23,866 nucleotides of DNA from Bacillota bacterium (GTDB lineage: Bacteria; Bacillota_A; Clostridia; DSM-8532), in contig JAFADM010000372.1 in the NCBI GenBank assembly GCA_023424865.1, positions 1-23,866 of the forward strand. Direction: 5' to 3'. Below the pieces are notes generated by a model. The model saw only the letters and a list, made by a program, of their open reading frames with translations, made no database searches and was not told the DNA's origin. Shown in pieces: positions 7,321-23,866 of the stretch. The translations under genes were made by a program, and so were the position numbers. Position 1 is the first letter of the stretch. Every line of letters begins with the position of its first letter.

Positions 7321-7428
7321 GAAGTTCCTCCTCTTAGGTTAGGATCCCAGGGTGTTTGCTAGGATTGCTTGTAATCAAAGGGCTCCCAGGGTATTTTCCA
7401 TTGTGATAAATAGCCTCACATATTTATA

Positions 7429-7459
7429 ATTATACAACAAACATGCATAAAAATTCAAC
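7429..7459 (-). promoter_or_regulatory. argC promoter overlapped by an ARG box (ArgR/AhrC operator)
   Basis: On the minus strand TTGAAT (7458-7453), an 18-nt spacer and a perfect TATAAT (7434-7429) form the promoter. The plus-strand text 7442-7459, CATGCATAAAAATTCAAC, matches the Bacillus AhrC operator consensus as I remember it (CATGAATAAAAATTCAAG) at 16 of 18 positions. It covers the -35 and spacer, so the arginine repressor should block RNA polymerase. Only one box is evident; ArgR/AhrC hexamers usually bind pairs, and a second box in the leader is not obvious. Confidence 0.8.
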
Positions 7460-7489
7460 TACCACGGCGCATTTGGTGAAAATAGCTTA

Positions 7490-7563
7490 TGCAAACTAGC
7501 TAAAAGCCAATTTTCTTTTTTGTAAAAAAATCAGGTAGCATAAAACTCTTGCAAAATGCTAAA
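7490..7563. repeat. Direct repeat TGCAAA-N-GCTAAA in the argC / ATPase divergent region
   Basis: TGCAAACTAGCTAAA at 7490-7504 recurs as TGCAAAATGCTAAA at 7550-7563, 60 bp apart. The first copy also resembles units of the argC-argB repeat (TGCAAACTCGCT at 6197). The pair flanks the place where the promoter of the plus-strand ATPase gene should be, so it may be an operator. With only two copies, chance is possible. Confidence 0.4.
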
Positions 7564-7612
7564 TTAATAGTGTAAGCGAAATTCGTACCGCACTTTGCAG
7601 GAGGTAATAGTA

Positions 7613-8725
7613 ATGGCTGGTGTAAAGCTTAATAATGTTTTTAAAGTATACGCAGGTAACGTTACGGCAGTTAGTGATTTCAATATTGACATTGAAGACA
7701 AGGAATTTATTATTCTTGTTGGACCGTCCGGATGCGGAAAGACCACAACCCTCAGAATGATCGCAGGACTTGAAGAGATTTCTTCCGGAGAGCTGTACAT
7801 AGGGGACAAGCTCTGCAACGATGTTGCTCCTAAGGACAGAGACATCGCGATGGTGTTCCAGAACTACGCTCTTTATCCTCACATGTCCGTGTTTGATAAC
7901 ATGGCATTCGGTCTTAAGCTCAGAAAAGTTCCCAAGGATGAGATCAAGAGAAAGGTACATGAAGCTGCGAGAATTCTCAGCATCGAGCACCTGCTTGACA
8001 GAAAGCCGAAGGCTCTTTCCGGCGGTCAGAGACAGCGTGTTGCCTTAGGCCGTGCTATCGTGCGTGAACCCAAGGTGTTCCTCATGGACGAACCTCTCTC
8101 CAACCTGGACGCTAAACTCAGAGTTCAGATGAGAACGGAAATCAGCAAGCTGCATCAGAAGCTTGATACCACCTTTATCTATGTTACCCATGACCAGACC
8201 GAAGCTCTTACCATGGGTACCCGAATTGTTGTTATGAAGGACGGCTTTGTACAGCAAATCGACAATCCTCAGAGACTCTACGATGAGCCCGTCAATATCT
8301 TTGTTGCCGGCTTTATCGGAAGCCCTCAGATGAACTTCGGAAATGCTATTGTTGAAAAGCAGGGCTCCAACGTTGTTCTTGCTTTCGGAAACTACAAGCT
8401 CGCTCTTCCCGCTAACAAGGCTGCTGAGATTGAGAAGCAGGGTTATGTGGGCAAGGAAGTTGTCTTCGGTATTCGCCCTGAGGATATTCATGACGAGATT
8501 GATTCCGCAGAAAATAACGGAAGCGCTCCCATGAAGGCTAATGTTGAGGTAACTGAAAGACTCGGTTCCGAAACCTACCTGTATGTTATTATCAACGATA
8601 TTAACTTTACCGCTCGTGTCAGCCCTAAATCCAAGACACAGGCTGGTGAAGAAGTGGCTCTTGTATTCGATATGGCCCGCATTCATCTGTTTGATAAGGA
8701 AACAGAAAAGGCTATTATCCACTAA
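7613..8725 (+). CDS. msmX: MsmX/UgpC-type sugar ABC transporter ATPase, stand-alone
   Basis: The start is the ATG at 7613 with AGGAGG 8 nt upstream; an upstream in-frame ATG at 7595 has no such site. The 370-residue protein has Walker A GPSGCGKTT (37-45), Q-loop Q83, signature LSGGQ (135-139), Walker B FLMDE (156-160), D-loop SNLDA and H-loop H193, then the MalK-like OB/TOBE regulatory domain from about 235. Such ATPases hydrolyse ATP on the cytoplasmic side of CUT1 carbohydrate transporters. In Bacillus subtilis MsmX serves several transporters that lack their own ATPase. Here the gene is alone between a divergent argC and a strong terminator, while both CUT1 loci in the window lack an ATPase, so a multitask role is likely (inference). 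UgpC/MalK is the alternative name. No convincing promoter could be picked. Confidence 0.95.
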   Translation: MAGVKLNNVFKVYAGNVTAVSDFNIDIEDKEFIILVGPSGCGKTTTLRMIAGLEEISSGELYIGDKLCNDVAPKDRDIAMVFQNYALYPHMSVFDNMAFGLKLRKVPKDEIKRKVHEAARILSIEHLLDRKPKALSGGQRQRVALGRAIVREPKVFLMDEPLSNLDAKLRVQMRTEISKLHQKLDTTFIYVTHDQTEALTMGTRIVVMKDGFVQQIDNPQRLYDEPVNIFVAGFIGSPQMNFGNAIVEKQGSNVVLAFGNYKLALPANKAAEIEKQGYVGKEVVFGIRPEDIHDEIDSAENNGSAPMKANVEVTERLGSETYLYVIINDINFTARVSPKSKTQAGEEVALVFDMARIHLFDKETEKAIIH

Positions 8726-8770
8726 TCGTATACAGGTTGCCTACAAAAGTGAATAAATCAAACTGATAAT

Positions 8771-8827
8771 AAAACCGGCCAGGGTTTAGCGGAAATGTTT
8801 TCTGTTAAATCCCTTGCCGGTTTTTTA
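8771..8827 (+). terminator. Rho-independent terminator of the ATPase gene
   Basis: AAAACCGGC-AGGG-TTTA on the left (8771-8788) pairs with TAAATCCCTTGCCGGTTTT on the right with two small irregularities, and a GGAAA/TTTC mini-stem lies in the loop. It runs into TTTTTT at 8821-8826, about 45 nt after the stop codon. Confidence 0.85.
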
Positions 8828-8833
8828 TATTTA

Positions 8834-8935
8834 GGGGTTTACGGAGTTCTCCGAACATAAATACTTATATAAACCCCGGTACCTATTTGCGTAAGGCGGG
8901 GATATTTCCCAAATTTAAGTATTCCAAACCCCGGG
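8834..8935. other. Non-coding stretch with nested and competing inverted repeats
   Basis: This is part of the 370-nt gap 8726-9095, which has no gene. GGGGTTTA (8834-8841) pairs with TAAACCCC (8870-8877), enclosing a perfect CGGAG-TT-CTCCG hairpin (8842-8853). A second CGGGG (8897-8901) could instead pair with CCCCG at 8874-8878, and a second AAACCCCGGG (8925-8934) could compete for GGGGTTT. The two AAACCCCGG copies sit in imperfect direct repeats of about 28 nt. There is no U-tract and no known riboswitch signature. It may be a structured RNA or a relic. Confidence 0.4.
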
Positions 8936-9001
8936 TATATTCAAAATAGTTAGAAATCGCACTGTAAATGCGTGGGACCAACGCTGCAGCTAAGGTTACC
9001 G

Positions 9002-9029
9002 TTGATTTATGGCGCAGTTATTATATAAT
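9002..9029 (+). promoter_or_regulatory. Predicted sigma-A promoter for the P-loop gene / sigH
   Basis: TTGATT (9002-9007), a 16-nt spacer and a perfect TATAAT (9024-9029), about 65 nt before the TTG start at 9096. It would transcribe the P-loop/Asp23 gene and probably sigH, since there is no terminator between them. Confidence 0.65.
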
Positions 9030-9095
9030 TGAAACAGATGTTAAGATAAAACGGACCTACGGGATCAGGCAGTTAGGATGGCTGGAGGATGAAAT

Positions 9096-9929
9096 TTGCA
9101 CACAGTAGGATTTATCGGACAAAGCGGTACGGGAAAAAGCCACAGAGCGCTGTGGGTTGCAAGGGAAAACGGTCTGGATTATATTATTGATGATGGACTT
9201 CTTATTCATGAAAATAATATTGTAGCAGGAAAATCGGCCAAGAAGGCGCCTTCAAAAATAAGCTCCGTAAAAATTGCTCTTTTTAGCGAGGCAGAGCATC
9301 GGAAACAGGTTGTTGATGCCATAAAACGCAATAAACCTCAGGGTATTTTAATCCTTGGGACCTCCGACGGCATGGTGGATAAAATTGCGGATATTCTGGA
9401 AATCGGCCCCATAGAAAGGCGCATTCGCATTGAGGATGTTGCCAGTCCCTATGAAATTGAGCAGGCGCGAAGTACCCGGATTAAGCAGGGAAAGCATGTT
9501 ATCCCTGTACCGGCTATCCAACTGAAAAAACAGTTTTCAGGTTATTTTTTGGATCCTCTCCAGCTTTTCAGGCGTAAGGGGAAGGGTGAATACCAAAATA
9601 TAGGCGAGAAATCGGTGGTTCGGCCTACCTTCAGTTATTTTGGCAGCTATACCATATCAGACTATGCCATCTATCAGGTGGTAAATCATATTATAAGTCA
9701 AATGCCTGAAATGGAGCGTATTACAAGATTTCGCACAAGTAACGGTGCAGAAGGCCTCTTTATTGATATGGACGTGACCATGGTGTTTGGCTATCCAATC
9801 ATAGAGGCTGCAAAAACAGCACAAAGTACCATCCGTACAGAACTGGACCGCTTTGCGGGTTTTAATGTAAGCAAGCTTATCCTTCATGTAAAAACGCTGG
9901 TGCTTGCCAAATCCGGTCAAAGTGAGTGA
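9096..9929 (+). CDS. P-loop ATPase fused to an Asp23/Gls24-like C-terminal domain
   Basis: The start is TTG at 9096 with GGAGG 7 nt upstream; an in-frame TGA at 9090-9092 rules out anything earlier, and the Walker A begins at residue 8. The 277-residue product has GQSGTGKS (8-15), an acidic IIDDG (30-34) that may be the Walker B, and ILILGTSDGM (84-93). A linker follows, and residues about 183-270 (YTISDYAIYQVVNHII to KLILHVKTLVL) have the pattern of the alkaline-shock Asp23/Gls24 fold. No signal peptide or TM segment is seen. I recognise this architecture as a recurring uncharacterised clostridial protein; its reaction is unknown. The Asp23 domain suggests a link to the cell envelope or stress. 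It lies 52 nt upstream of sigH in the same direction, so the two are probably co-transcribed and it may act in the transition to stationary phase or sporulation. Confidence 0.7.
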   Translation: MHTVGFIGQSGTGKSHRALWVARENGLDYIIDDGLLIHENNIVAGKSAKKAPSKISSVKIALFSEAEHRKQVVDAIKRNKPQGILILGTSDGMVDKIADILEIGPIERRIRIEDVASPYEIEQARSTRIKQGKHVIPVPAIQLKKQFSGYFLDPLQLFRRKGKGEYQNIGEKSVVRPTFSYFGSYTISDYAIYQVVNHIISQMPEMERITRFRTSNGAEGLFIDMDVTMVFGYPIIEAAKTAQSTIRTELDRFAGFNVSKLILHVKTLVLAKSGQSE

Positions 9930-11420: not shown

Positions 11421-11885
11421 ATGCAGAATAAGAATAAAGTTAATATAAAAATTGCGGGAAGCGACTATTCACTTTGCGGTGAGGATTCCCCGGAGTATAT
11501 GCAGAAATTGGCAGTTTTTGTCGATAAAAGAATCCAGGAAATGATGAAAAGAACGCCGCTGCTCAGTGTTTCCATGGCCTCTGTCCTAGTATCCCTTAAC
11601 TTTGCCGATGAATTATTTAAGATGAGGGAAGCTCTTGTCAGGTTGGATGAGGAAAAAAATCGTCTTTCCACAGGCCGGGAGAATCTTGAAAAGGATATAA
11701 AAGCACTTACAGAAGAGGTTCACTATTTAAGTGAGCTTAACAATGTTCTTCTTGATGAATTGTCTGGTAATAAAACAAAGCCGCAAGATGGGGCGGCACC
11801 GTCTCCTCCGGAACAAACCGGGGAGGAGGGGTTGCATTCGGAGTCTGCTTCCGAAAAGTCGGATCAGCAAACGGAGGGTAAGTAA
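11421..11885 (+). CDS. zapA: Cell division protein ZapA
   Basis: The 154-residue protein has the ZapA N-terminal domain (KVNIKIAGSDYSL at residues 5-17, EYMQKLAVFVDKRIQEM at 25-41) followed by a long amphipathic coiled coil (about 65-112). ZapA binds and bundles FtsZ at the division site. The last 40 residues are a Pro/Glu/Ser-rich, probably disordered tail that makes the protein longer than minimal ZapA. GGAG lies 10 nt upstream of the ATG. Its TAA overlaps the next ATG (TAATG), so the two are translationally coupled. The zapA, membrane protein, U32 order fits clostridial gene neighbourhoods I recognise. Confidence is high for the family. Confidence 0.92.
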   Translation: MQNKNKVNIKIAGSDYSLCGEDSPEYMQKLAVFVDKRIQEMMKRTPLLSVSMASVLVSLNFADELFKMREALVRLDEEKNRLSTGRENLEKDIKALTEEVHYLSELNNVLLDELSGNKTKPQDGAAPSPPEQTGEEGLHSESASEKSDQQTEGK

Positions 11886-12424
11886 TGTTTGATGAAATGA
11901 TTTCCTGGGGAGAACTGATTACGCTGGTAGGATTTTTACTGGGAACAGGTGTTGCCATTGTATTAATCCTTGCTCTGGTTCAGCTCGTACGCGTTTTAAA
12001 GAATGTTAACGAAATACTCACAAAGAATAAAGAGAATATAGCCAAGTCCGTGGCTAAGCTGCCTGAAATTACGGAAAACGCCGCTCATGTGACTACTGTG
12101 CTAAAGAAAAACATGGACGGAATCGATAAGGTAGTCGAGGACGTGGGCAAAATTTCAGGTACTGTGAAAAAAGGTGTAGAAACCATACAGAATGACATTG
12201 TGTTAAAGGCCAAATCCATACTTGAAATAGTCGAGATGATAAAGAGCCTCTTTCAGAAAAAGAAGGATGCCCCCCCAAAAAAGAAGCAGGGTACGGTATA
12301 CCGCTACAAATATAAGCTTGGTCAGGACAAGCCTGATGAGGTGGAGGTAACTACGGGAGAAAAGGCGGATACAGCCCCTTATCCCAATTACAAGAAGATG
12401 GATAGCCCGGAGGAAGGCACATAA
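11885..12424 (+). CDS. Single-pass membrane protein with DUF948-like helical region
   Basis: A 179-residue protein with one TM helix near the N-terminus (about 11-35), then a long amphipathic helical stretch (VNEILTKNKENIAKSVAKL through VETIQNDIVLKAKS, about 40-115) with the look of DUF948-type proteins. A charged Lys/Pro-rich tail ends in a Tyr-containing segment. By topology the helical part is probably cytoplasmic, with a basic residue following the TM. The function is unknown; its overlap with zapA by one base and place before the U32 gene suggest a role near the divisome or envelope. It could also be a scaffold for the neighbouring proteins. No catalytic motif is present. Confidence 0.6.
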   Translation: MFDEMISWGELITLVGFLLGTGVAIVLILALVQLVRVLKNVNEILTKNKENIAKSVAKLPEITENAAHVTTVLKKNMDGIDKVVEDVGKISGTVKKGVETIQNDIVLKAKSILEIVEMIKSLFQKKKDAPPKKKQGTVYRYKYKLGQDKPDEVEVTTGEKADTAPYPNYKKMDSPEEGT

Positions 12425-12428
12425 AAGC

Positions 12429-14900
12429 ATGAGTATAAAAGCAAAGATGGAGCTGCTTGCGCCTGCAGGCAGCTTTGAAGCTCTAAAAGCGGCGGTTGCC
12501 AATGGCGCGGATGCGGTGTATTTTGGCGGCGGCCGCTTTAATGCACGAAAAAATGCAGAAAATTTTGAAGGTGAAACCCTGGCCTCGGCCATAGATTATG
12601 TCCGCGAGCGAGGGGTTAAAGCGTATATAACCTTAAACACTCTCTTGAAGGATACGGAGCTGGAGGAAGCTCTTGAGCTGGCCTCCTTTATATGGAAAGA
12701 GGGCGCCCATGGCGTGATTGTTCAGGATATGGGCTTATTAAAGCGTATCCGCGAAGCGCTTCCGGACCTGAACCTTCATGCCAGCACCCAGATGACGGTA
12801 ATGGACAGAAGTGGCGTGGACGCTCTTGGAAGCCTGGGTGTCAAGCGGGTCGTTCTGGCCAGGGAGCTTTCCCTGGAGGCCGTTTCGGCAATCGGCAGGA
12901 ATAACCCCGTGGAGCTGGAGGTTTTCGTCCACGGAGCGTTATGTGTCTGCTATTCGGGGCAGTGTCTTTTAAGCAGCGCAATAGGCGCAAGAAGCGGCAA
13001 CCGCGGCCTGTGCGCCCAGCCCTGCCGTCTGCCCTGGCGGGTGGGAAATGCTAAGGGGGAGCTTTTGCCCCCTGCATACCGCTTAAGTCCGAGGGATATG
13101 ATGGGACTTGATCATTTGCCCGGGCTTAGGGCTGCGGGTGTAACTTCCCTAAAAATTGAAGGCCGGATGAAGTCTCCCGAGTATGTGGCGGCTGTGACCG
13201 GTGTATACAGAAAATATCTGAACCTTTTGGAGGAAAAAGGCGAGGCAGGCTATCGAATTTATCCCGATGACAGGGAACGGCTTCTCCAGATTTTCAACAG
13301 GGGAGGCTTTACCGCTTCCTACCTGGAAGGCAGCAGGGACTGGAGCCGTCTTATTTACCCCCGGCATCCTAAAAACAGAGGTGTTCCACTGGGGACAGTA
13401 GAGGCTGTAAGAGAAGATGAGGCTTACGGCGAAACCCTGAAAATTAAACTGGAGAAAGCACTTAACCGGGGTGACGGTATTGAGGTAGAACTGCCGGGCG
13501 GGGAGCAGGGGGTGGCCAGCGCTCTTATTACCTCTATCCTTATAAATGGAGGTCATGTAGCCCAGGCTCCGGCCGGAGCTTCCCCCTGGGTAGGAGCTGT
13601 AAGAACCCCCTGTCCTGTCGGCGCCAAGGTTTGGCGTACCTCCTCCGTTAAGCTTTTGGAAAGCTTGAGAGAAACCTATGAGCGGGGTGAGAAGAGACGG
13701 ATTCCTGTAAAAATGGACTTTACAATGGCTGTAAATAAACCTGCCATCCTCACCATTAGGGATGATGACGGTCACAGGGTACAGGCCCAATCCGCCCAAA
13801 TCGCGGAAAAGGCTCAGGTCCGTCCCCTTTCGGAAAAAAGAGTTGAGGAACAGCTTAAAAAAACCCAGGACACCCCTTACGAAGCCGCAGGGGTGAGTAT
13901 AAGCCTGGATGGGGACAGCACCCTTCCCGTATCGGCTATTAACGCTCTAAGAAGGGAAGCGCTGGAGCTTCTCAAAGCAGCACGCCTGGCAAAGGCCAGG
14001 CTCCCTGTTCCAACATTTACGAAGGCACGACAAGCTGGAGGTTATGGCGTTAATACGGTTGAACAGCCCCAGCTAAGTCTTTTTTATGAATTTTATCCCC
14101 GTATTCCTGCCGCGCTTCCGGAAAATGTGGGCAGGGTCTATGTGCCGGTTTCCACTTTGGATCAGATGAAGGCTTTAAACGAAGTTTTTAGCGGAGAAAT
14201 CTTTATTCATACGCCGCCGGTTCTGTCTGCGGAGGGGCTGGAAAGACTAACAAACCAAATCCTTGAGCAGGAAGGTCTCCTAACAGGAATTTCATCCTCA
14301 AATATCGGAACCTTATCCTATTTAAGGAAAAGGTTCCCCAACCTTAAACACCACGGTGAAAGAGGGCTTCATGCCATGAACGCCCAGGCCGCCGCTTTTT
14401 TAAAGGATATGGGCGCTCAATCTCTAACTTTATCTCCGGAGCTTAATAGCGGGGAGGTTGCGGCTTTCCAGAAAAAGCTTCTTCCCCTTGAAGGCGAGGT
14501 TTACGGAAGGCTGCCCTTAATGACAATGGCCTCCTGTCCGGCAGGAGCCGATAAAGCCTGCTCAGGAAAGTGTGGGGTTTGTTCTAAACGAGAGGGAATC
14601 CTGGAGGATCGAAAAGGAGCCAGGTTCATTTATACCCGCAGCGGCGAGCCTGCTGTTACCCGCTTGTACAATCATCTTCCTGTGCTCATGGATGATGGGC
14701 ACCTTTTAAGAACCTTAGGCCTTCGCTGGCTCCGTCTCCTTTTTACCCTGGAAGAGCCGGAAATGGAAGGCGCGCTTATCCGTTATTATTCAGCTTTATT
14801 GAAGGACGAAGAAAAAAGCTTGAATGACAGGGACAAAGACCTTATCCGGGAGCTGAAAGCCTCGGGAATTACAAAATTACATTGGTTCAGAGGAGTATAA
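12429..14900 (+). CDS. Peptidase U32 family protein with DUF3656-like region (RlhA/TrhP relatives)
   Basis: An 823-residue protein. The N-terminal U32 domain starts ELLAPAGSFEALKAAVANGADAVYFGG and carries the family signature EVFVHGALCVCYSGQCLLS (from residue 164), with cysteines at 172, 174, 179, 195 and 199. Despite the name, studied relatives are RNA-modifying: RlhA hydroxylates 23S rRNA C2501 and TrhP modifies tRNA wobble uridine; the cysteines probably hold an iron-sulfur cluster. The length and the middle region (about 380-500) fit the long form with DUF3656. A second Cys cluster, CPAGADKACSGKCGVC, lies near residue 700, so the C-terminal third is a second U32-like half. The start at 12429 has AGGAAGG about 11 nt upstream; ATG at 12447 is an alternative. 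It lies 4 nt after the membrane protein gene. Whether the substrate is rRNA, tRNA or something else is not known. Confidence 0.95.
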   Translation: MSIKAKMELLAPAGSFEALKAAVANGADAVYFGGGRFNARKNAENFEGETLASAIDYVRERGVKAYITLNTLLKDTELEEALELASFIWKEGAHGVIVQDMGLLKRIREALPDLNLHASTQMTVMDRSGVDALGSLGVKRVVLARELSLEAVSAIGRNNPVELEVFVHGALCVCYSGQCLLSSAIGARSGNRGLCAQPCRLPWRVGNAKGELLPPAYRLSPRDMMGLDHLPGLRAAGVTSLKIEGRMKSPEYVAAVTGVYRKYLNLLEEKGEAGYRIYPDDRERLLQIFNRGGFTASYLEGSRDWSRLIYPRHPKNRGVPLGTVEAVREDEAYGETLKIKLEKALNRGDGIEVELPGGEQGVASALITSILINGGHVAQAPAGASPWVGAVRTPCPVGAKVWRTSSVKLLESLRETYERGEKRRIPVKMDFTMAVNKPAILTIRDDDGHRVQAQSAQIAEKAQVRPLSEKRVEEQLKKTQDTPYEAAGVSISLDGDSTLPVSAINALRREALELLKAARLAKARLPVPTFTKARQAGGYGVNTVEQPQLSLFYEFYPRIPAALPENVGRVYVPVSTLDQMKALNEVFSGEIFIHTPPVLSAEGLERLTNQILEQEGLLTGISSSNIGTLSYLRKRFPNLKHHGERGLHAMNAQAAAFLKDMGAQSLTLSPELNSGEVAAFQKKLLPLEGEVYGRLPLMTMASCPAGADKACSGKCGVCSKREGILEDRKGARFIYTRSGEPAVTRLYNHLPVLMDDGHLLRTLGLRWLRLLFTLEEPEMEGALIRYYSALLKDEEKSLNDRDKDLIRELKASGITKLHWFRGV

Positions 14901-14902
14901 CT

Positions 14903-15442
14903 ATGGCTTATTCGGAAGAAAAGGCAGACATATTTGTGGAAGTTATGAGGGAGGGAGTCAGCCTTCCAACCTATGCCAATGCCTGGGATGCGGGCATGGA
15001 TGTTTGTGCTGCGATGGAGGTGGTAGTGGAGCCGGGACAGACGGTTATCGTACCCACGGGTCTTAAAATGGCTATTCCCGAGGGATTTGAAATACAGGTA
15101 AGGCCTCGCAGCGGCTTAAGCTTAAAAACGCCACTCCGGCTTCCCAACAGTCCCGGCACCATTGATGCAGGCTACCGGGATGAAATCGGCATTATTATAA
15201 CCAATACCTCCCCCTGTGATGGAGCCTCTTCCGAAGAAAACAATGAAGAGCCCTATACCCTGGACAGAAAGGACAATAAAAAAGGATCCTATCTTATAAG
15301 AAAGGGGGACCGCATTGCTCAGCTTGTACTGTGCCGTGTTCCCCGCATTGCCTTTCATACCGTGGAATCGGTCCGTGACCTGGGAACAAACCGTGGAGGC
15401 GGCTTTGGCTCTTCCGGAATTAAAAGCGGCAAGGAGGGCTGA
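14903..15442 (+). CDS. dut: dUTP diphosphatase
   Basis: The enzyme hydrolyses dUTP to dUMP and pyrophosphate. All five motifs of the trimeric family are present: DAGMDVCA (29-36), RPRSGLS (67-73), NSPGTIDAGYRDEI (82-95, with catalytic D88 and substrate-stacking Y91), KGDRIAQL (134-141) and RGGGFGSSG (164-172). At 179 residues it is longer than the usual 145-150, mainly because of an acidic, polar insert of about 25 residues between motifs 3 and 4. The start is ATG at 14903 with GAGGAG 7 nt upstream, only 2 nt after the U32 stop codon, so it belongs to the zapA cluster. An in-frame ATG at 14882 inside the U32 gene has no ribosome site. Confidence 0.97.
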   Translation: MAYSEEKADIFVEVMREGVSLPTYANAWDAGMDVCAAMEVVVEPGQTVIVPTGLKMAIPEGFEIQVRPRSGLSLKTPLRLPNSPGTIDAGYRDEIGIIITNTSPCDGASSEENNEEPYTLDRKDNKKGSYLIRKGDRIAQLVLCRVPRIAFHTVESVRDLGTNRGGGFGSSGIKSGKEG

Positions 15443-15571: not shown

Positions 15572-17860
15572 ATGAAGAAGAAGGGTTTCTTTAAGACTTT
15601 ATTGCTGTCGAATTGTCTCATTCTGATGATATCCCTTATTGTAGCCATGATTGGCTATTTTGGCTATCGCGGCAATATTCTCAAATATACCAGTGATTAT
15701 AACATGGTGCTTTTAAATCAAATACGGAACATCATGGATGAGCGGGTTAGAAGCATAAACAACCTTATTTTCAGTATTTCGGTAAACCCTTCTGTGGAAA
15801 ACCTCCGCATAACCAGTAACCCCGAGGACAACAATAACCGCTACAATGCCATTCAGGCCATGAAAGCCCTGGAATCCTACCTGGCGGTATATAAATATGT
15901 GGATTCACTCTACCTTTATTTTGAGAAAAATGACCTGATTATCACCAATTCCTCCGTCTATTCCAGTACGCAAAAGTTCCTCGACTACTCCGATACAGCA
16001 TACTGGGAGGAGGCGAGCTGGAGGGATTTATTCCAAAAAACCCGGTACATTTCCTACAGCAATTCCAAAAACATGTCTACCCAAGGCGGAGAAAAAAACC
16101 TTTTTACCATTACCTACTGCCTTTATTCTAAAACCTCCGATTCAAAGGCTGTTTATATCATCTTAAATTTGGATTATTCCTTTCTTGAAAACTTTAAAAA
16201 TGATGCTAAATTTTTTCCCGACAGCCTGCTTATTGCAAAGGATCCTTCGGGCAATACCATGTTTTCCCTGGGCGAGGGATCCAAACTCTATGAGGAGGGC
16301 CTGACGGATATCTCCTTTACACAGAATACCCAGCTTCTCGGGCCTAAAGGACAGCGGCTTATTGCCACAAAATTATCTTCAACCTTAAATGAATGGGATT
16401 ACTTTTTTGTTCTTCCCGAAAATTTATTTGTGCAGAAAGCCACAGATATTTTTATATTCAGCGCCCTGCTGCTTATAATACTGGCCGGACTGGTTCTGGC
16501 ATATTTACTTGCAAAGCACAATTTTGTTCCCATCCGGAACATTACCCTTAAAATCAGCCACTATAAGCAAACCGGCCTGGAAACCTCCAACGGAGACAAT
16601 GAAATTGAGTACATAACCCAGGCCGTTACTCAATCCTTCGAGGAATTCAAACAAATTGAAAGCCAGCTGACAAAGCAAATTCCCATTGTGCAAATGCATA
16701 CCGTACGCAACCTTATTAACGGCAATTACAACGATTTGGAAAAGCTTATTCGCTTTTGCTCCTCCGTAGGCATTACCTTTCCTTATCCCTTCTATTATGT
16801 GGTGATCTACAGCTTTGATTCTCAGAGCATCCAGATGGATGATTTAAGCCTTGCAACGGCTCAGCTTCGCAATGAGGCCTTTACGTCCGTGATGGATGGC
16901 TTCATCATACATACGACGGATATAAACGAAAGCTATACCGTCTTGGGGCTCATAAACACTTCCGTTGACCTTTATAAAAACAAGGAGCTGTTTGAAGCCT
17001 ATTGCAGAGAGGTTTTGAAGAAGATTAACCTGTCCGCCCATATAACCATATCCCTGGGAAGTCAGGAGCTTAATTTAAAGGAAGTGCGCAAATCCTATCT
17101 CAGTGCTGACAGAGCCCTGCAGAATTACCTCATGCGTCTTACTGGGGGAATTATTTATGCCGGCAGCATGGAACCCGACAAGAATGCCTATTACTACCCC
17201 ATGGATCTGGAAATGCAGCTGGTTAACTATGTTAAATGTGGGAAAATCGATGAGGTCAATGCGATACTGGATCTTATCATCATGGAAAATTTCATTAAAA
17301 ACGAACTCTCCCTGGAGTCGGCGCGCTGCTTGATGTTCAGCATGATGGGAACGGCCATTCGCCTCATTAACAGCTCAGGTGTATCTAAAAACGGTGTTTT
17401 TGAGCAGTCTGCCCTAATAAATAAAATAATCTCCTGCAATAATGCCCAGGCTATGGAGGAAGCGCTGCGAAAGGTATACAGCATGCTATGCCAGGCTATC
17501 CAGGCAGAAAAAAAGAAAAAAGCCGACAATGTCATCCAGCTTATTGTTAATTATATTGCCAATCATTATTCCGACAATTCCTTAAGCCTTCTTTCCGTAT
17601 CAAACGAGATCGGTCTCAATCCCACTTACCTGTCCGGATATTTCAAAGAACAAACCGGAATGAACTTTCTTGTATACGTCAACAAAATACGCCTGGACAA
17701 GGCTCAGGAGAAGCTGAGGCAGACCGATAAGAGCATTAGTGAAATAGCGGCGGATACAGGCTATTCCAATAGCGGCGTCCTCATCCGGAATTTTAAGAAG
17801 TACCTGGGAATAACCCCCGGGCAGTTCAGGGAGCAGCTTGGCAAGAATGCATGTGAGTGA
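15572..17860 (+). CDS. Membrane-bound AraC-family regulator with extracytoplasmic sensor domain
   Basis: The 762-residue protein has TM1 at about 9-31, an extracytoplasmic sensor of about 260 residues (32-290), TM2 at about 291-314, a HAMP-like cytoplasmic linker and a middle domain (about 370-620), and a C-terminal AraC double helix-turn-helix (about 660-757: SLLSVSNEIGLNPTYLSGYFKEQTG, then ISEIAADTGYSNSGVLIRNFKKY). The sensor is probably Cache-like, by analogy with YesS/YtdP proteins rather than by motif. Such one-component regulators sense extracellular sugars and activate the neighbouring LplB/YtcP/binding-protein operon, which lies directly downstream here. AAGGTG precedes the ATG by 7 nt. 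A terminator at 17889 separates it from the transporter genes. The architecture is certain; the ligand is unknown. Confidence 0.95.
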   Translation: MKKKGFFKTLLLSNCLILMISLIVAMIGYFGYRGNILKYTSDYNMVLLNQIRNIMDERVRSINNLIFSISVNPSVENLRITSNPEDNNNRYNAIQAMKALESYLAVYKYVDSLYLYFEKNDLIITNSSVYSSTQKFLDYSDTAYWEEASWRDLFQKTRYISYSNSKNMSTQGGEKNLFTITYCLYSKTSDSKAVYIILNLDYSFLENFKNDAKFFPDSLLIAKDPSGNTMFSLGEGSKLYEEGLTDISFTQNTQLLGPKGQRLIATKLSSTLNEWDYFFVLPENLFVQKATDIFIFSALLLIILAGLVLAYLLAKHNFVPIRNITLKISHYKQTGLETSNGDNEIEYITQAVTQSFEEFKQIESQLTKQIPIVQMHTVRNLINGNYNDLEKLIRFCSSVGITFPYPFYYVVIYSFDSQSIQMDDLSLATAQLRNEAFTSVMDGFIIHTTDINESYTVLGLINTSVDLYKNKELFEAYCREVLKKINLSAHITISLGSQELNLKEVRKSYLSADRALQNYLMRLTGGIIYAGSMEPDKNAYYYPMDLEMQLVNYVKCGKIDEVNAILDLIIMENFIKNELSLESARCLMFSMMGTAIRLINSSGVSKNGVFEQSALINKIISCNNAQAMEEALRKVYSMLCQAIQAEKKKKADNVIQLIVNYIANHYSDNSLSLLSVSNEIGLNPTYLSGYFKEQTGMNFLVYVNKIRLDKAQEKLRQTDKSISEIAADTGYSNSGVLIRNFKKYLGITPGQFREQLGKNACE

Positions 17861-17888
17861 GCCGATATCAGGTAAAAATAGAAAGTAT

Positions 17889-17923
17889 AAAAGGCTTCAG
17901 GCTTTGTTTCTGAGGCTTTTTTT
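17889..17923 (+). terminator. Rho-independent terminator of the AraC-type regulator gene
   Basis: AAAAGGCTTCAG (17889-17900) pairs with CTGAGGCTTTT (two G-U pairs) across a 9-nt loop and continues into a T-run ending at 17923, about 30 nt after the stop codon. The remaining gap to 18126 holds no gene and no promoter I would defend. Confidence 0.8.
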
Positions 17924-18126
17924 GCGGGCATTTCTGTTCTTGTAAAACGCAACAAAGGCCAAGGGGGCGGGTCCCAGGCCTGCCTGAAAAATTGATCACT
18001 GAAATTTTGAATATGGCAAAGCTTAAAAATCAAACACGTTTTGAAGTATAGGCTATTTCCGTGAGAAGGGAATTTGACTACACTTATCCTAGCAATGAAC
18101 CCAACGAATGGGATGGAGGAGAAAAC

Positions 18127-19077
18127 GTGACGACGATACCGGCTGTACTCAAAAAGACCCGTGACTTCGCCCTGATAAAACGACTGGTCAAGGATTTTAA
18201 AAAAAATAAACTTATCTACCTGATGGCTTTACCCTGCATCCTGTATTTTGTGATATATCATTACTGGCCCATGTACGGAGCAACCATCGCCTTCAAGGAA
18301 TTCAGCCCCAGGCTGGGAATACTGGACAGTCCCTGGGTGGGTATAAAGTATTTTAAAAGCTTTTTTGAAAGCATTTATTTTGTGCGTATTTTAAAAAACA
18401 CCCTGATACTTAATTTCTTGAATATTATCTTTGGCTTTCCGGCTCCCATTCTTTTTGCCTTGTTAATGAATGAGCTGTCGGGCAACAGGTTTAAAAGAAC
18501 CGTCCAGACCGTTACCTACCTGCCTCATTTTATTTCTACGGTCATTATCTGCGGTATGCTCATTGACTTCAGCTCAAAATCCGGTCTTTTTAACAACATT
18601 ATTACGCTATTTGGCGGCCAGGCCTCTTCCTTATTGTTGAATCCTTCCTATTTCAGACCCATTTACATAGGAAGCGGTATCTGGCAGGAGGTAGGCTGGG
18701 GCTCCATCATTTATCTTTCCGCACTTACCTCCATTGATGAGGAACTCTATTCGGCAGCCCATATAGACGGAGCGGGGCGGTTTAAGCAGCTCATCCATAT
18801 TACCCTTCCGGGAATTCTTCCCACCATTATCATTATGCTCATCCTTCGAATGGGAAGCATCATGAACGTAGGCTTTGAAAAGGTTATGCTGCTTTATAAC
18901 CCGGCTACCTACGAGGTTGCGGATGTCATTTCAACCTTTGTGTACCGAAAGGGTATTGAAGAAGCTAATTACAGCTACAGTGCGGCTGTGGGCCTTTTTA
19001 ACTCGGTGGTTAATTTTCTGATGATTATAACCGCCAATTACATCAGCAGAAAAACCAATGAGAGCAGTCTGTGGTAA
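18127..19077 (+). CDS. CUT1 sugar ABC transporter permease, LplB-type
   Basis: The start is GTG at 18127 with GGAGG 7 nt upstream; an earlier in-frame GTG at 18061 has no ribosome site and would add 22 polar residues. The 316-residue integral membrane protein has about six TM segments (the first is LIYLMALPCILYFVIYHYW). The EAA loop that docks on the ATPase is EELYSAAHIDGAGRFKQLIHITLP in context. KEFSPRLGILDSPWVG after TM1 is typical of LplB proteins, which pair with a YtcP/LplC partner for oligosaccharide uptake. That partner follows 14 nt downstream and the binding protein after it. No ATPase gene is in the operon. Regulation is probably by the AraC-type protein encoded immediately upstream. 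Confidence 0.95.
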   Translation: MTTIPAVLKKTRDFALIKRLVKDFKKNKLIYLMALPCILYFVIYHYWPMYGATIAFKEFSPRLGILDSPWVGIKYFKSFFESIYFVRILKNTLILNFLNIIFGFPAPILFALLMNELSGNRFKRTVQTVTYLPHFISTVIICGMLIDFSSKSGLFNNIITLFGGQASSLLLNPSYFRPIYIGSGIWQEVGWGSIIYLSALTSIDEELYSAAHIDGAGRFKQLIHITLPGILPTIIIMLILRMGSIMNVGFEKVMLLYNPATYEVADVISTFVYRKGIEEANYSYSAAVGLFNSVVNFLMIITANYISRKTNESSLW

Positions 19078-19091
19078 AGGAGTAACTGGGA

Positions 19092-19973
19092 ATGAAAATA
19101 AAAAAATCACCAAGTCAGCGAGCTTTTGACGCATTTAATATCTTATTCATGATCCTAATGATGCTCATCACCCTGTATCCGTTTCTTTATGTTCTGTTTG
19201 GTTCTTTAAGCATGCCGGCGGAATTCTCCAAGCATACCGGCGTCCTTCTGGCGCCTCAGGGCTTTCAGCTTGACGCCTATTGGCTTGTGCTGCAAAATGA
19301 GGACATTCTGTCCGGCTACGCGAATACTTTGTTCTATGTGGGCGTGGGAACCACACTGAATGTCCTTTTTACCATTCTGACCGCGTTTGTGGTTTCCAGA
19401 AAAAACCTGATGCTAAAAAAATTAATGCTTATCATGATGACCATCACAATGTTCTTTGGCGGCGGCATGATTCCCACTTATTTAATGATGCAGAAGATAG
19501 GAATTATGGGAACCCGGTGGTCCCTCATTTTTCCGGGTTTAATTTCCGTTACCAATGTTATTATTATGAGGACCTCCTTTATGGGCATTCCGGCAGGCCT
19601 AGAGGAATCGGCCTATATTGACGGCGCCAATGACTTCAAGGTGCTGTTTCGAATTATTGTTCCGCTTTCTATGCCGGTCATTTCGGTAATGGTCCTGTTC
19701 TATGGTGTAAGCCACTGGAATTCCTGGTTTAACGCCATGCTGTACTTAAGAGACCGAAAGCTTTTCCCCCTTCAACTGATTTTAAGAGAAATCCTTGTTT
19801 TCAGCTCCACTGACGGCATGATGGTTTCTCTGGGAACCATTAAGGGCCAGGACATGAGTGAAATCATTAAGTATGCCACCATTATTGTGTCCACGCTTCC
19901 CATTCTATTAATTTATCCCATGCTGCAGAAGCATTTTGTGAAGGGCGTCATGATAGGCGCTATCAAAGGCTAG
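19092..19973 (+). CDS. CUT1 sugar ABC transporter permease, LplC/YtcP-type
   Basis: The 293-residue membrane protein has about six TM segments, with the EAA loop EESAYIDGANDFKVLFRIIVPLS in the second half. The signatures TMFFGGGMIPTYLMM and VSHWNSWFNAMLYL, and the C-terminal KHFVKGVMIGAIKG, are typical of YtcP/LplC proteins. It forms the heterodimeric channel with the LplB-type permease encoded 14 nt upstream. AAAGGAG lies about 11 nt before the ATG at 19092. The gene for the binding protein follows after 88 nt. Confidence 0.95.
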   Translation: MKIKKSPSQRAFDAFNILFMILMMLITLYPFLYVLFGSLSMPAEFSKHTGVLLAPQGFQLDAYWLVLQNEDILSGYANTLFYVGVGTTLNVLFTILTAFVVSRKNLMLKKLMLIMMTITMFFGGGMIPTYLMMQKIGIMGTRWSLIFPGLISVTNVIIMRTSFMGIPAGLEESAYIDGANDFKVLFRIIVPLSMPVISVMVLFYGVSHWNSWFNAMLYLRDRKLFPLQLILREILVFSSTDGMMVSLGTIKGQDMSEIIKYATIIVSTLPILLIYPMLQKHFVKGVMIGAIKG

Positions 19974-20061
19974 CCCAACCATTGTTTACAGCTATACATG
20001 CAGGAGAAATTTCTGTATGCTATAAATTTTAAGTCTTGTTATGGAACAAGGGAGGATTTTT

Positions 20062-21690
20062 ATGGTAAGAAAAAGGGCATTAACCAGAATTACAGCCTTC
20101 ATGCTGTCAGCCATCCTGTCCGTTGGCGTTCTGTCCGGCTGCGGGAAAGAAACCGCTTCCCCCGGAGGAAGCAGCAGCCCGTCACCCGGCTCCGGTTCGC
20201 CTGCTGCAACCCAAAAAGCGGATCCCGTAAAGCTCACCTGGTATCAGGTAAACCGTTCCAACAGTGTCGTCAAATCCATGAGTGAGGTTCTTGCCTTTCA
20301 GGAGCTGGCGAAGCTTGCCAACGTGGAAATTACCTTTGAGCACCCGGCGGCAGGTACCGATGCCAATGAACAGATTAATCTCTTAATTGCGTCCCAATCC
20401 CTGCCCGATATTATTTTCTGGAACTGGAAGTCCATGCCCGGAGGTATTTCCAAATACGTGGAGGAAGGAATTATTCTTCCCATTAATGACCTTGAAACCC
20501 CCTATTACGACGCGGTTCTGGAACAATACCCGGAATGCGCCAAGTTTGTCCCCCTCCAGGATGGGAGAATCCCTGCTTTCTACCAATTGGATCCGGATCC
20601 CAGAAGAACAACCTACAGTGGCTTCTGCATCCGTCAGGATTGGCTTGAAAAGCTGAATTTGTCCGCTCCCACTACCATGGACGAATGGCATACGGTATTA
20701 ACCGCATTTAAAAACCAGGACCCTAATAATAACGGTGTAAATGACGAAATACCCTTCCTGGATGAAAAGGGCAATATCCTAAGGGGCTTTACAGCTGCCT
20801 ACGGTGTGCTTGCCGGGCTTTGCTTCGACCCTGAAACAGGCAAGGTGGTTTACGGTCCTTCCCAGCCTTCTTACAGGGAGTTCCTGTCTACCATGAGCCA
20901 GTGGTATGAAGAAGGTCTTATTGACTCGGAATTTGCCAGCAACGACAGAAAAATGTTTACCGCAAAAATTCAGGGTGAAATCGGAGGAGCCTTCTATGCC
21001 TCCATTAATGTGGGAGTAGGCAATAATATTGCCGCGGTAAGGCCCACAAACCCCGATTTCTCCGTGGTTGGCATTCCTGCTCCCAAATCCTCCGGCGGTG
21101 TTGCCTATATGCCCCAAAACGATAATCTCATGAAGCTGGGCGAAGCAGGGGTTATTACCTCCAAATGCAAGGATCCTCAGGCAGCGGCTGCGCTCCTGGA
21201 TCTGGGCTATTCGGAAGAGGGCCGCACTCTCTTGAACTGGGGTGTGGAGGGCGTTACCTATACTGTTGAAAATGGCCAGAAGAAATTTGTGGATTCCATT
21301 ATGAATCCGGGCGAGGGCCTGTCCCCGTCCAATGCCATTCTCCAATTTGCCTACCCGGCCAACGGCAACGCCAAGGTGATGGATTTTGAGGCCGCAGCAC
21401 AAATTCAGTATGTCTACGAGGAATCGGTTGAGTCCATTAACAACTGGCTCGATGCGGATCCCTCCCTGATGCTCCACCCCAATATGTATTACACGCCTGA
21501 GGAGAGCTCACAGATTAGCAATATCCTCAACGAGGTTAAAACCTATCACGATGAGATGGCGCTTAAGTTTATCCTGGGTACCGAGCCTTTGAGCAAATTT
21601 GACGAGTATGTTCAAACCATCCGGAAGATGGGTATTGATGAGGCCATTAAGCTCACGCAGGATGCGGTTGACCGCCTTAACAGCAAATAA
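20062..21690 (+). CDS. Sugar ABC transporter substrate-binding lipoprotein (CUT1, LplA-like)
   Basis: The start is ATG at 20062 with GGAGG 6 nt upstream; the in-frame ATG at 20041 is the wrong side of that site. The product is 542 residues. A signal peptide ends in the lipobox LSGC with the lipidated Cys at residue 27, followed by a Ser/Pro/Gly-rich linker (31-52) that tethers it to the membrane. The mature protein is a two-lobed type of about 490 residues. DPNNNGVNDEI (220-230) is the EF-hand-like calcium loop common in this family. LLNWGVEG is the hinge-side signature shared with the partial binding protein at 1-1221. It delivers an unknown oligosaccharide to the two permeases upstream. It ends the operon, with a terminator 42 nt after the stop. 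Confidence 0.95.
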   Translation: MVRKRALTRITAFMLSAILSVGVLSGCGKETASPGGSSSPSPGSGSPAATQKADPVKLTWYQVNRSNSVVKSMSEVLAFQELAKLANVEITFEHPAAGTDANEQINLLIASQSLPDIIFWNWKSMPGGISKYVEEGIILPINDLETPYYDAVLEQYPECAKFVPLQDGRIPAFYQLDPDPRRTTYSGFCIRQDWLEKLNLSAPTTMDEWHTVLTAFKNQDPNNNGVNDEIPFLDEKGNILRGFTAAYGVLAGLCFDPETGKVVYGPSQPSYREFLSTMSQWYEEGLIDSEFASNDRKMFTAKIQGEIGGAFYASINVGVGNNIAAVRPTNPDFSVVGIPAPKSSGGVAYMPQNDNLMKLGEAGVITSKCKDPQAAAALLDLGYSEEGRTLLNWGVEGVTYTVENGQKKFVDSIMNPGEGLSPSNAILQFAYPANGNAKVMDFEAAAQIQYVYEESVESINNWLDADPSLMLHPNMYYTPEESSQISNILNEVKTYHDEMALKFILGTEPLSKFDEYVQTIRKMGIDEAIKLTQDAVDRLNSK

Positions 21691-21731
21691 GGCCGCAATC
21701 GCCTAAGCTTTTTAAGCTGAACTTCAAAGCT

Positions 21732-21772
21732 GAAAAGGCCCGGAGAACATTTTTTGTTCCCCGGGCCTTTTC
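21732..21772. terminator. Bidirectional terminator between the sugar locus and the ZorAB-like pair
   Basis: GAAAAGGCCCGG (21732-21743) pairs perfectly with CCGGGCCTTTTC (21761-21772), with an inner GAAC/GTTC extension. A/T ends on both sides give short U-tracts to both strands. It lies between convergent genes: 42 nt after the binding-protein stop and 3 nt after the OmpA-like gene on the other strand. Confidence 0.85.
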
Positions 21773-21775
21773 ACC

Positions 21776-22699
21776 CTAGTCCACATAATCCTTGATGATT
21801 TTTTCAATACTCGCATCCTTTATTCGGAGTGAAATTTCAATACGTCGGTTTTTTGTTTTGGAGGCTTCATCGGTATTGGGTGCAACGGGCCGGAATTCCG
21901 AGAAGCCCGCGGCCTGAAAGAAGCTGCCGTAATCCTTTTCCAGCCGGGGAGAGGCTTTCATCATGGCAATGATAACGGCGATGGCCCTGTCACAGGATAA
22001 GTAATAATTGTTGTCGTAGGAATCGTCGGAGTCCGCATAGCCCGCTATGGTGATGGATTCAATGTAGTCTCTGAAATTCTCGGTTTCCAGCATTTTCAAG
22101 AAGGCGCCGGCCAGCTTTTTTAATAACGCCTGGCCACCGGCGGTTATCTCACTGGAGCCTTTGTCGAAGATGAGGGTGCTGCTGATAACCAGACTGGCGT
22201 TTTTGTCAATGGTAACAAGGGGCTCTTCGGTGTTTTCAAAGGCAGATCCAAACTCCTCCTCCATCATTTTTTTTACCTGATTTAACAGGCTTACCCTTAA
22301 AACTGAAATCTCCTGGAGACGGGCTTGCACATCCTGGAGCTCCATTTCCTTGGAGCTTAGGGCCGAACGGTCTGAATTGAGTTGCTTTTCCAGCTCGCTT
22401 ATATGATCCTCCCTGACCGACAGTGTGCTTTCCATGGTGTTTAGAGCCGATTCCTTCTGTTCCAGCTCGGTATTGATTTCACGGAGAAGCTCCTGGCCCG
22501 CGGCCAGGTCCGTACGGGCCAGGCTTAGCTTGTCGTCCCAGGACTTAGTGGTTAAGATTTGCTTAATGAAAAGAATGAGTATAAGAAAAAAGAGGACAAA
22601 CACAAGGGAGGACATAATGTCCGTAAAAGAAGGCCAGTAGTGCTCTTCCTCACCGTCACCCCTTTTTCTTCGAAAGCTTGAGGATACATAGCTTCTCAT
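21776..22699 (-). CDS. MotB/ZorB-like protein: single TM, coiled coil, OmpA peptidoglycan-binding domain
   Basis: The 307-residue protein has a short cytoplasmic tail, then WPSFTDIMSSLVFVLFFLIL: the Asp (D27) at the start of the only TM helix (28-49) is where MotB and ZorB carry the ion-conducting Asp. Residues about 52-135 are a coiled coil, longer than I expect in ZorB. Residues about 162-292 are an OmpA/MotB peptidoglycan-binding domain with LIFDKGSSEI, AGYADSDD (D203), YLSCDRA and KNRRIEIS (R285-R286). Its ATG overlaps the stop of the MotA-like gene (ATGA), so the two are one translational unit. The predicted role is the wall-anchored rotor/stator arm of an ion-driven motor. It could belong to a Zorya-type defence system or an orphan envelope motor; no flagellar genes are near. 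It is the last gene of its operon. Confidence 0.85.
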   Translation of the reverse strand: MRSYVSSSFRRKRGDGEEEHYWPSFTDIMSSLVFVLFFLILILFIKQILTTKSWDDKLSLARTDLAAGQELLREINTELEQKESALNTMESTLSVREDHISELEKQLNSDRSALSSKEMELQDVQARLQEISVLRVSLLNQVKKMMEEEFGSAFENTEEPLVTIDKNASLVISSTLIFDKGSSEITAGGQALLKKLAGAFLKMLETENFRDYIESITIAGYADSDDSYDNNYYLSCDRAIAVIIAMMKASPRLEKDYGSFFQAAGFSEFRPVAPNTDEASKTKNRRIEISLRIKDASIEKIIKDYVD

Positions 22700-23820
22700 C
22701 CTCTCACACCTTCCTTGTAGCTCCCTGGTTTTTCCACTCTGGCGGCCGCAGCTTCACTGTAGTTTAAAAGCCGGTCGGGAATGCCATCAATAGCTTTAAG
22801 AAAGTGTTCTCTGTCCTTAATTGAAGACGACAGATGCTCCGACAGCTTGTGAAAAACGCCGGTAAGGTTTTCAAGCCTTACATGCTCCTCCTCCATGCCC
22901 AGGGTAAGAAGTTGAAGGGCCTCAGCGCTTTTAAACAGATGCGCGCTCCCTTCACGCAGGGCGTCGCCGCTTTTGTCGGCTGCGGTGCACAGGGCCGAAA
23001 CACTGGTTTCTGCTCGGTTAAGGTTTTCGGATAAGCCGGAATTAAACTCCTTAAGCACGGAAAAGGTGTCTGAAAAACCATGTATGGTATCACTAAGCTG
23101 AGATACGGCAGACTGAAGCGATTCGGACAAATCCTTCAAAACGGAAGGAGGCAGCGCCTCGTCCTTTTCCTGCTCCTTTTTATCAAGAGACTCGGAGGCA
23201 AGCTTGACATCAATGTACTCCTCCAGCTGGGACATTAAAAGATCCTTGGCATGGGAGGCACTGTAAAAGGCGGTAATTAAGGTAAAGAGTATGGAGAAGC
23301 CTGTTCCTGCAAGGCTTGTGATAAAAGCCACAGACATGCCCTGAAAAGTGGATAAAAGAAGGGTAAAGATGTCCTGAGCCGCCTCGTTTACCAGGGCCTG
23401 AGCCGTAATTTCCTCCACGGCAGAGCCCATGTGACCCACGGCGGAGGTTAACCCGATAAAGGTGCCGAAAAGGCCTGTTGTGATAAGCAGGCTGTTAACC
23501 CGCTTCAGAAAGCTCTCGGCACTTCCCAAAGCCCCCATATAAACATTAAGAGCCGTATCCAATACCGCTCCCGTATTTATGGCCTCAATACCGCTTTTGT
23601 ATGTACTGCGGCATTCTTCCGTTATCCAGATGAGCATATCCGTTTCAAGGCTCTCAGTTTCGCCTGCACAGTAAGCGGCCAGCTCCTCGGACAGGTAAAG
23701 GTAGCGCCGCCTTAAAAGAATATTCAAATAAAACGCGCCAAGAAAAAGAACCACCAGAGCAGCCGTGATAATAAAGCCTACCGGGCCAAGACGCTGATAA
23801 AGAGCCAGGAGGTTGTCCAT
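22696..23820 (-). CDS. MotA/TolQ/ExbB-family proton channel protein, ZorA-like
   Basis: The 374-residue protein has TM1 at about 14-36, TM2 at about 107-130 (LLITTGLFGTFIGLTSAV, the diagnostic MotA/ExbB signature) and TM3 at about 153-187 (AFITSLAGTGFSILFTL). About 185 residues of predicted cytoplasmic helix follow (SDTIHGFSDTFSVLKEFN and onward). A long cytoplasmic tail after TM3 is the feature that separates ZorA from ExbB and TolQ. With the OmpA-like partner it should form a 5:2 ion-driven motor in the cytoplasmic membrane (from known homologues). AAAGGTG lies about 10 nt before the ATG at 23820. An upstream gene seems to end 18 nt before it, so it is probably not the first gene of the operon. 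Family confidence is high; a defence role is inference. Confidence 0.85.
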   Translation of the reverse strand: MDNLLALYQRLGPVGFIITAALVVLFLGAFYLNILLRRRYLYLSEELAAYCAGETESLETDMLIWITEECRSTYKSGIEAINTGAVLDTALNVYMGALGSAESFLKRVNSLLITTGLFGTFIGLTSAVGHMGSAVEEITAQALVNEAAQDIFTLLLSTFQGMSVAFITSLAGTGFSILFTLITAFYSASHAKDLLMSQLEEYIDVKLASESLDKKEQEKDEALPPSVLKDLSESLQSAVSQLSDTIHGFSDTFSVLKEFNSGLSENLNRAETSVSALCTAADKSGDALREGSAHLFKSAEALQLLTLGMEEEHVRLENLTGVFHKLSEHLSSSIKDREHFLKAIDGIPDRLLNYSEAAAARVEKPGSYKEGVRG

Positions 23821-23838
23821 GTATAAACCACACCTTTC

Positions 23839-23866
23839 CTAGAGGAAATCCGGGACAGGGTCCAAA
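23839..23866 (-). CDS. Possible 3' end of an upstream gene (partial)
   Basis: Reading the minus strand from the right edge, one frame gives LDPVPDFL and a TAG at 23841-23839, followed by the ribosome site of the ZorA-like gene. The short spacing suggests an operon partner continuing off the right edge. Only eight codons are visible, so the product cannot be named and the frame may be chance. Confidence 0.3.

Follow-up and report, generated by a model that had tools for sequence, protein, structure and literature searches.

Three groups of ion-driven membrane machines are the closest described systems to the gene pair reported here. In the Zorya antiphage systems (types I and II), the solved ZorAB complex has five A-type subunits placed around two B-type helices, and both the helical tail of ZorA and the peptidoglycan-binding domain are needed for defence (PMC11890865). 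The flagellar stators MotA-MotB and MotP-MotS share with Zorya an ion-channel core and an OmpA-type wall anchor, and the TolQR and ExbBD energisers form the third group. A 2025 study of MotAB evolution excluded ZorAB from the trees as too remote and termed the non-flagellar members "generic ion transporters", whose B subunits were described as having no OmpA-type anchors (PMC12505986). The pair under study, genes A and B, is located at the right end of a stretch of 23,866 nucleotides (nt) from a Clostridial genome of the Bacillota (contig JAFADM010000372.1, assembly GCA_023424865.1), referred to below as the window. Its B protein carries an OmpA-type domain, so that the family fits the two classes of that study only imperfectly. 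We read the pair as a stand-alone ion-driven 5:2 cell-envelope motor of Clostridia that belongs with ZorAB in the MotA/ExbB superfamily, with a probability of roughly 0.6.

Both genes are on the minus strand. Gene A (22696..23820) encodes a 374-amino-acid (aa) motor subunit of the MotA/TolQ/ExbB fold with three transmembrane (TM) segments, and gene B (21776..22699) a 307-aa MotB/ZorB-like subunit with an OmpA-type peptidoglycan-binding domain at about residues 160-293. The original prediction, made from the DNA letters, had described a three-TM MotA/ExbB protein with a helical tail of about 185 residues and a MotB/OmpA-type partner with a TM aspartate, Asp27, and both descriptions held. For A, the Pfam MotA_ExbB match (24.6 bits, barely over the cut-off of 22.9), the hydropathy profile with TM stretches at residues 7-36, 111-129 and 164-182, and an AlphaFold2 model (mean predicted local distance difference test score, pLDDT, 84.9; predicted template modelling score, pTM, 0.54) were in agreement, the model placing helices at 188-221 and 226-363 past the third TM segment, i.e., a predicted tail of about 185 residues, such as is characteristic of ZorA. 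For B, the Pfam OmpA match reached 35 bits (cut-off 27.2), hydropathy gave one TM stretch at 27-45, and the predicted model (mean pLDDT 81.2, pTM 0.59) had a single helix at 25-154 followed by the OmpA-type domain. This helix of about 130 residues would comprise the TM segment and some 107 residues outside the membrane, corresponding to about 16 nm if straight (0.15 nm per residue). The codon of Asp27, by homology the ion-carrying residue, is at 22619..22621.

The stop codon of A overlaps the start of B in an ATGA (22696..22699), as originally stated and as borne out by the gene coordinates, which suggests translational coupling. A possible ribosome-binding site of A, AGGAAAGG, was predicted at 23833..23840 on the same strand, and only 46 nt separate the ATG of A from the right edge of the window. 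The terminator said to lie 3 nt after the B stop was recovered as a strong, terminator-like hairpin at 21731..21773 (minus strand, between convergent genes) with a 19-bp stem, -43.5 kcal/mol and a z-score of -9.1, equalled by none of 200 shuffles; its distance from the stop was 2 nt rather than 3, and its 3' arm ends in UUUU with no long U run beyond.

Protein searches at E<=0.001 (for A, scoring was confined to the 7997 candidates with the most words in common) retrieved 38 A-type and 134 B-type relatives, 120 of the latter being listed. When the B alignment was used to search the species genomes of GTDB, 265 relatives emerged, the best 80 loci of which were analysed, making 81 with the window. 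Judged by their labels, the hosts were nearly all Clostridia or other Bacillota, together with one Myxococcales contig and one genome labelled as a delta proteobacterium. The two genes were adjacent in 78 of the 81 loci (clustering gave 76, window included, and tblastn added L067 and L069), which is more than chance, and in the other three (L016, L017, L039) B started less than 0.7 kb from a contig end. The 4-nt overlap of the ATGA type recurred in 11 of the 75 other loci in which both genes were clustered, and a gap of 241 nt was present in L018. The WPxxxD motif with the TM aspartate was found in all 81 B proteins, and the strict pattern [AT]D...N..LS..RA in 61; most of the remaining 20 had, by eye, A-to-S or S-to-G changes, and L060 had no aspartate at that position. 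The combination of a MotA_ExbB core with an adjacent single-TM partner bearing a TM aspartate is that of the 5:2 ion-driven motors, and an A5B2 assembly with ion-driven rotation would follow for the pair by homology.

In the phylogenetic trees, A was placed on the ZorA side, apart from flagellar MotA and with its split from TolQ/ExbB supported at 100/99, while B was on the ZorB side, outside the flagellar MotB group, the family being kept as one in 74% of bootstrap trees. These first trees used hand-chosen family rows (26 of 76 A and 26 of 81 B proteins), and L139, a locus treated below, was dropped from the A tree. The joint grouping of both subunits with ZorA and ZorB against MotA and MotB supports the name "ZorAB-like motor pair" that had been given to the locus, and the position outside the flagellar clade in both trees, and for A also outside TolQ/ExbB, answers the phylogenetic check proposed with it. 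The accompanying suggestion of an uncharacterised motor of Gram-positive bacteria is likewise supported by the trees; literature searches, mostly without subscription papers, found no description of this pair and no everyday (non-defence) relative of ZorAB. Like Zorya ZorA and ZorB, the pair combines a MotA/ExbB core and a long, predicted helical cytoplasmic tail with a TM aspartate, an OmpA-type domain and adjacent genes. The stretch between the TM aspartate and the OmpA motif, however, measured 192-240 residues across the 81 B proteins of the family, the window's having 204, compared with 131-151 in three ZorBs and 154-191 in 13 Clostridial MotBs.

The profile scores separated the pair from Zorya proper. 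With PADLOC, the window pair reached 36.2 bits (A) and 106.9 bits (B), two A proteins of relatives 47.3 and 47.8 bits, and one relative B 109.7 bits. The control locus, a type II Zorya of Bacillota confirmed with PADLOC (L138:7876-10958), scored far above these, with ZorA, ZorB and ZorE consecutive at 308.6, 304.4 and 234.3 bits, its nuclease gene thus adjoining the motor pair. The PADLOC ZorB models also matched four of four flagellar MotB proteins, at up to 88.8 bits, so that only the match of A was telling and the B score was rejected as proof of Zorya; the ZorA models gave no match for two MotA proteins and 14.7 bits for TolQ. The NCBIfam scores were below the Zorya cut-offs throughout (ZorA 24.8 against 100, ZorB1 38.7 against 400 and ZorB2 31.7 against 400 bits). 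In the class of Thermoclostridium caenicola, whose genome carries locus L005, strong B matches (E<1e-50) were present in 34 of 293 genomes, whereas the type II ZorA model matched two of 291 (type I was not searched there), namely the true Zorya of L138 and the unconfirmed L139; another type II model matched three of 398 genomes of the phylum. By eye, L145:5841-9251 had a type II-like ZorA-ZorB-HNH order and L146:2118-5612 a type I-like one, with ZorA-ZorB followed by a 397-aa gene and a helicase-like gene. The L139 locus (6768-9886) contained a MotA/ExbB-like gene (508 aa) and a 524-aa TM partner, which by eye looked surface-exposed and had no OmpA domain, beside polysaccharide-type genes. No zorAB was present in 49 kb of E. 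coli ATCC 8739, a stretch chosen by guess.

The neighbours of the relatives appeared to be of household rather than antiviral kind. The 399 proteins of 90 aa or more encoded up to three genes away from the pair were reduced to 220 representatives; ten of these, open reading frames at contig ends, were left out, and 210 were scanned at E<=1e-8. No Zorya-effector model was matched among the 208 proteins with full lists, and none among the matches listed (25 of 49 families) for the remaining AddB/AddA-like pair. Single neighbours did match other defence models, including AriA, DolB and PD-T4-6, and the REase_II nicking-endonuclease model matched one protein in each scan batch. In 20 of the 80 loci at least two genes of a block convergent with the pair were found in order: an M20-type peptidase, dUTPase, U32 peptidase, a 179-aa-type open reading frame, ZapA and further genes. 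The closest group had metabolic genes upstream of A, for glutamate dehydrogenase, a DHODB-type iron-sulphur protein and, by eye, a GltD-like protein, with the set incomplete in some loci. Other clades had other neighbours, such as the AddB/AddA-like genes (by eye); in the divergent members L152 and L159, whose genomes gave no FliG match, the pair immediately preceded dnaG and rpoD, and in L154 and L155 it was beside rpsO and pnp, the neighbours in L155 and L159 being assigned by eye from matching N-termini. In two loci the gene immediately before the pair, in the same orientation, encoded an S-layer-homology protein (L046:6853-8841 and L059:6981-8882).

A mobile carrier was rejected, with no clear relative in any of the three collections: the 15 pattern matches in viral contigs included no confirmed relative, the phages, searched with B only, gave none, and the plasmids yielded no A match and just four weak OmpA-domain matches for B. 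One order had the gene in 23 of 33 genomes at E<=1e-30 and the Acetivibrio family in seven of 12 at E<=1e-119. Together with the shared neighbourhood, this points to a pair that would be mostly inherited vertically; the patchy, mobile and defence-associated occurrence that marks Zorya was not observed for it. Spo0A was present in 34 of 43 pair-bearing genomes, a figure given without a background rate. A search for NF033914 in 140 Myxococcota genomes gave no match, and no positive control matched either. Since the relatives' pair stands amid household and not antiviral genes, a cell-envelope motor that has so far gone undescribed is the probable identity; that it is a ZorAB-type motor outside Zorya is very probable.

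The length of the A tail, counted as residues after a fixed marker in the third TM segment in 76 loci, fell into three classes: 146-181 (35 loci), 190-204 (12 loci, the window among them) and 314-325 (29 loci). A TPR-like gene directly followed B in all 29 long-tail loci, two of these genes being contig-end fragments found by BLAST, and in none of the 47 with shorter tails, which disqualified the protein as a universal partner. Outside this count, L154 and L155 (A of 512-514 aa) had the TPR-like gene, L152 and L159 (A of 306 and 289 aa) were without it, and L069 and L160 had only a distant or doubtful counterpart. The TPR-like profile gave a strong match in five of five long-tail genomes, and among 16 shorter-tail genomes there was no match in 11 and a weak one in five. 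The Pfam TPR models matched just under their own cut-offs, making the label probable. Because the gene is confined to long-tailed loci, docking of its product on the tail rod is suggested for that lineage. The family-only tree had two changes of the tail/TPR state, and none of 200 bootstrap trees had one; two independent changes are thus favoured by the tree, with a single change not rejected (p-AU 0.162), and the occurrence of A-B-TPR and A-B at the same place in the shared neighbourhood suggests that the gene was lost or gained in place. A loose C-terminal box, P[DE][QRK] followed by Y or H, was present in 12 of 12 medium, 29 of 29 long and none of the 35 short tails; as a family-wide motif it was rejected, the strict pattern occurring in 14 of 76. 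The A protein of the Myxococcales contig (L067) resembled the short-tailed Clostridial form, possibly through transfer or a binning error, and the member titled delta proteobacterium (L058) grouped within the Clostridial short-tail clade, so its label may be wrong.

On these grounds the motor type is well supported, while the role is something we infer. By homology with the solved ZorAB (PMC11890865), five A subunits would enclose a pair of B helices and, with the B domains holding the peptidoglycan, ions moving past Asp27 would drive rotation of the ring of A. The long helix of B would place the wall domain some 16 nm outwards, which would suit a thick-walled cell. The A tail, judging from its covariation with the TPR-like gene, would be a cytoplasmic rod of set length that passes rotation or load inwards and so carries an envelope signal; in the long-tail lineage the extra part of the rod would carry the TPR-like protein as the likely first receiver, and lineages without that gene would make do with a shorter rod. 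That the pair reports or acts on the state of the cell wall, through rotation of the cytoplasmic rod or load on it, is a tentative proposal, which may well prove mistaken.

Several observations weigh against the reading as a household ZorAB-side motor. Sixty of the 80 loci were outside the shared neighbourhood, the distribution was patchy even within the pair's own order (10 of 33 genomes without the gene) as well as across the class, and vertical inheritance was read from locus and occurrence. The trees held only three Zorya sequences and a few non-flagellar families, and the three ZorBs and the family formed an open fork in the tree of B, under a long-branch warning. NCBIfam ranked B closer to PRK09039 (86.5 bits, 3e-24), MotB PRK07734 (54.6 bits) and YiaD (52.9 bits) than to ZorB1, although even the best of them, a "peptidoglycan-binding protein" family, has a cut-off of 305 bits. 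The A profile searched against PDB sequences was uninformative, with unrelated coiled coils on top and ZorA ninth (0.0081), and the association with flagellated genomes given below hints at motility.

The pair might instead be an energiser of the Tol/Ton kind, an ordinary force transducer, e.g., in division or wall remodelling, with no rotating cytoplasmic rod as its output. In structure comparisons the predicted A fold was closest to TolQ/ExbB, zapA belongs to the shared neighbourhood and a murG-looking glycosyltransferase-28 gene was near one member. Against this are the separation of A from TolQ/ExbB in the tree and the covariation of tail length with a presumed cytoplasmic partner; ExbD and TolR, moreover, are unlike B with its OmpA-type domain on a long helix, and TolQ and ExbB differ from the long-tailed A. 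Most family members are from monoderm Bacillota, which have no outer membrane to energise, and we consider this explanation unlikely.

A role at the flagellum, as an additional or substitute stator or in braking or regulating its motor, is a rather improbable alternative. All 13 pair-bearing genomes searched had a separate MotA-sized MotA_ExbB protein, and FliG was enriched, in 28 of 34 pair-bearing genomes against 89 of the remaining 259 in the class sample (Fisher p 1e-7, kinship ignored). Six pair-bearing genomes nevertheless had no FliG match, though drafts may be incomplete, MotA-MotB and MotP-MotS formed a separate branch in both trees, and the TolQ, ExbB and ZorA folds fitted the A model better than MotA.

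A Zorya-type antiphage system with effectors that are missing, distant, unrecognised, or placed upstream of the window or elsewhere is the least probable of the three, since the grouping with ZorA/ZorB, the weak ZorA matches, the other defence models at some neighbours, a gene upstream of A beyond the window edge, and a predicted tail and wall domain of the sort required in Zorya (PMC11890865) are outweighed by the neighbours, the locus and the scores, and the proposed Zorya variant with reversed gene order was therefore not supported, the neighbours having been read at the relatives and not upstream of A in the window.

The other genes of the window are not part of the motor. The conserved block of zapA, the 179-aa open reading frame, U32 peptidase and dUTPase (11421..15442, plus strand) marks a chromosomal locus common to relatives, the window having the block from dUTPase on. 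Between it and the pair, where in close relatives the M20-type peptidase gene adjoins B, were an AraC-type regulator, ABC-transporter permease-type genes and a lipoprotein-type gene (15572..21690, plus strand), two of the four with Pfam matches at 1e-5 and the other two named by eye. Two solute-binding-type genes, alike by eye, were at both ends of the window (1-1221 and 20041-21690), the latter without a Pfam match at 1e-5.

A further and doubtful step would be to see in this household Gram-positive rotary motor, with its length-set and TPR-docking rod, a surviving relative of the non-defence motor that Zorya recruited as ZorAB. For annotation, matches to the motor pair alone should not be named Zorya, considering the score of flagellar MotB on the PADLOC ZorB model. 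The TPR-like protein on the rod would offer a testable partner, and signal passage through a tail could be compared with a motor not engaged in defence. If many Clostridia carry such a ZorAB-side motor in their ordinary genomes, ZorAB would gain an everyday relative.
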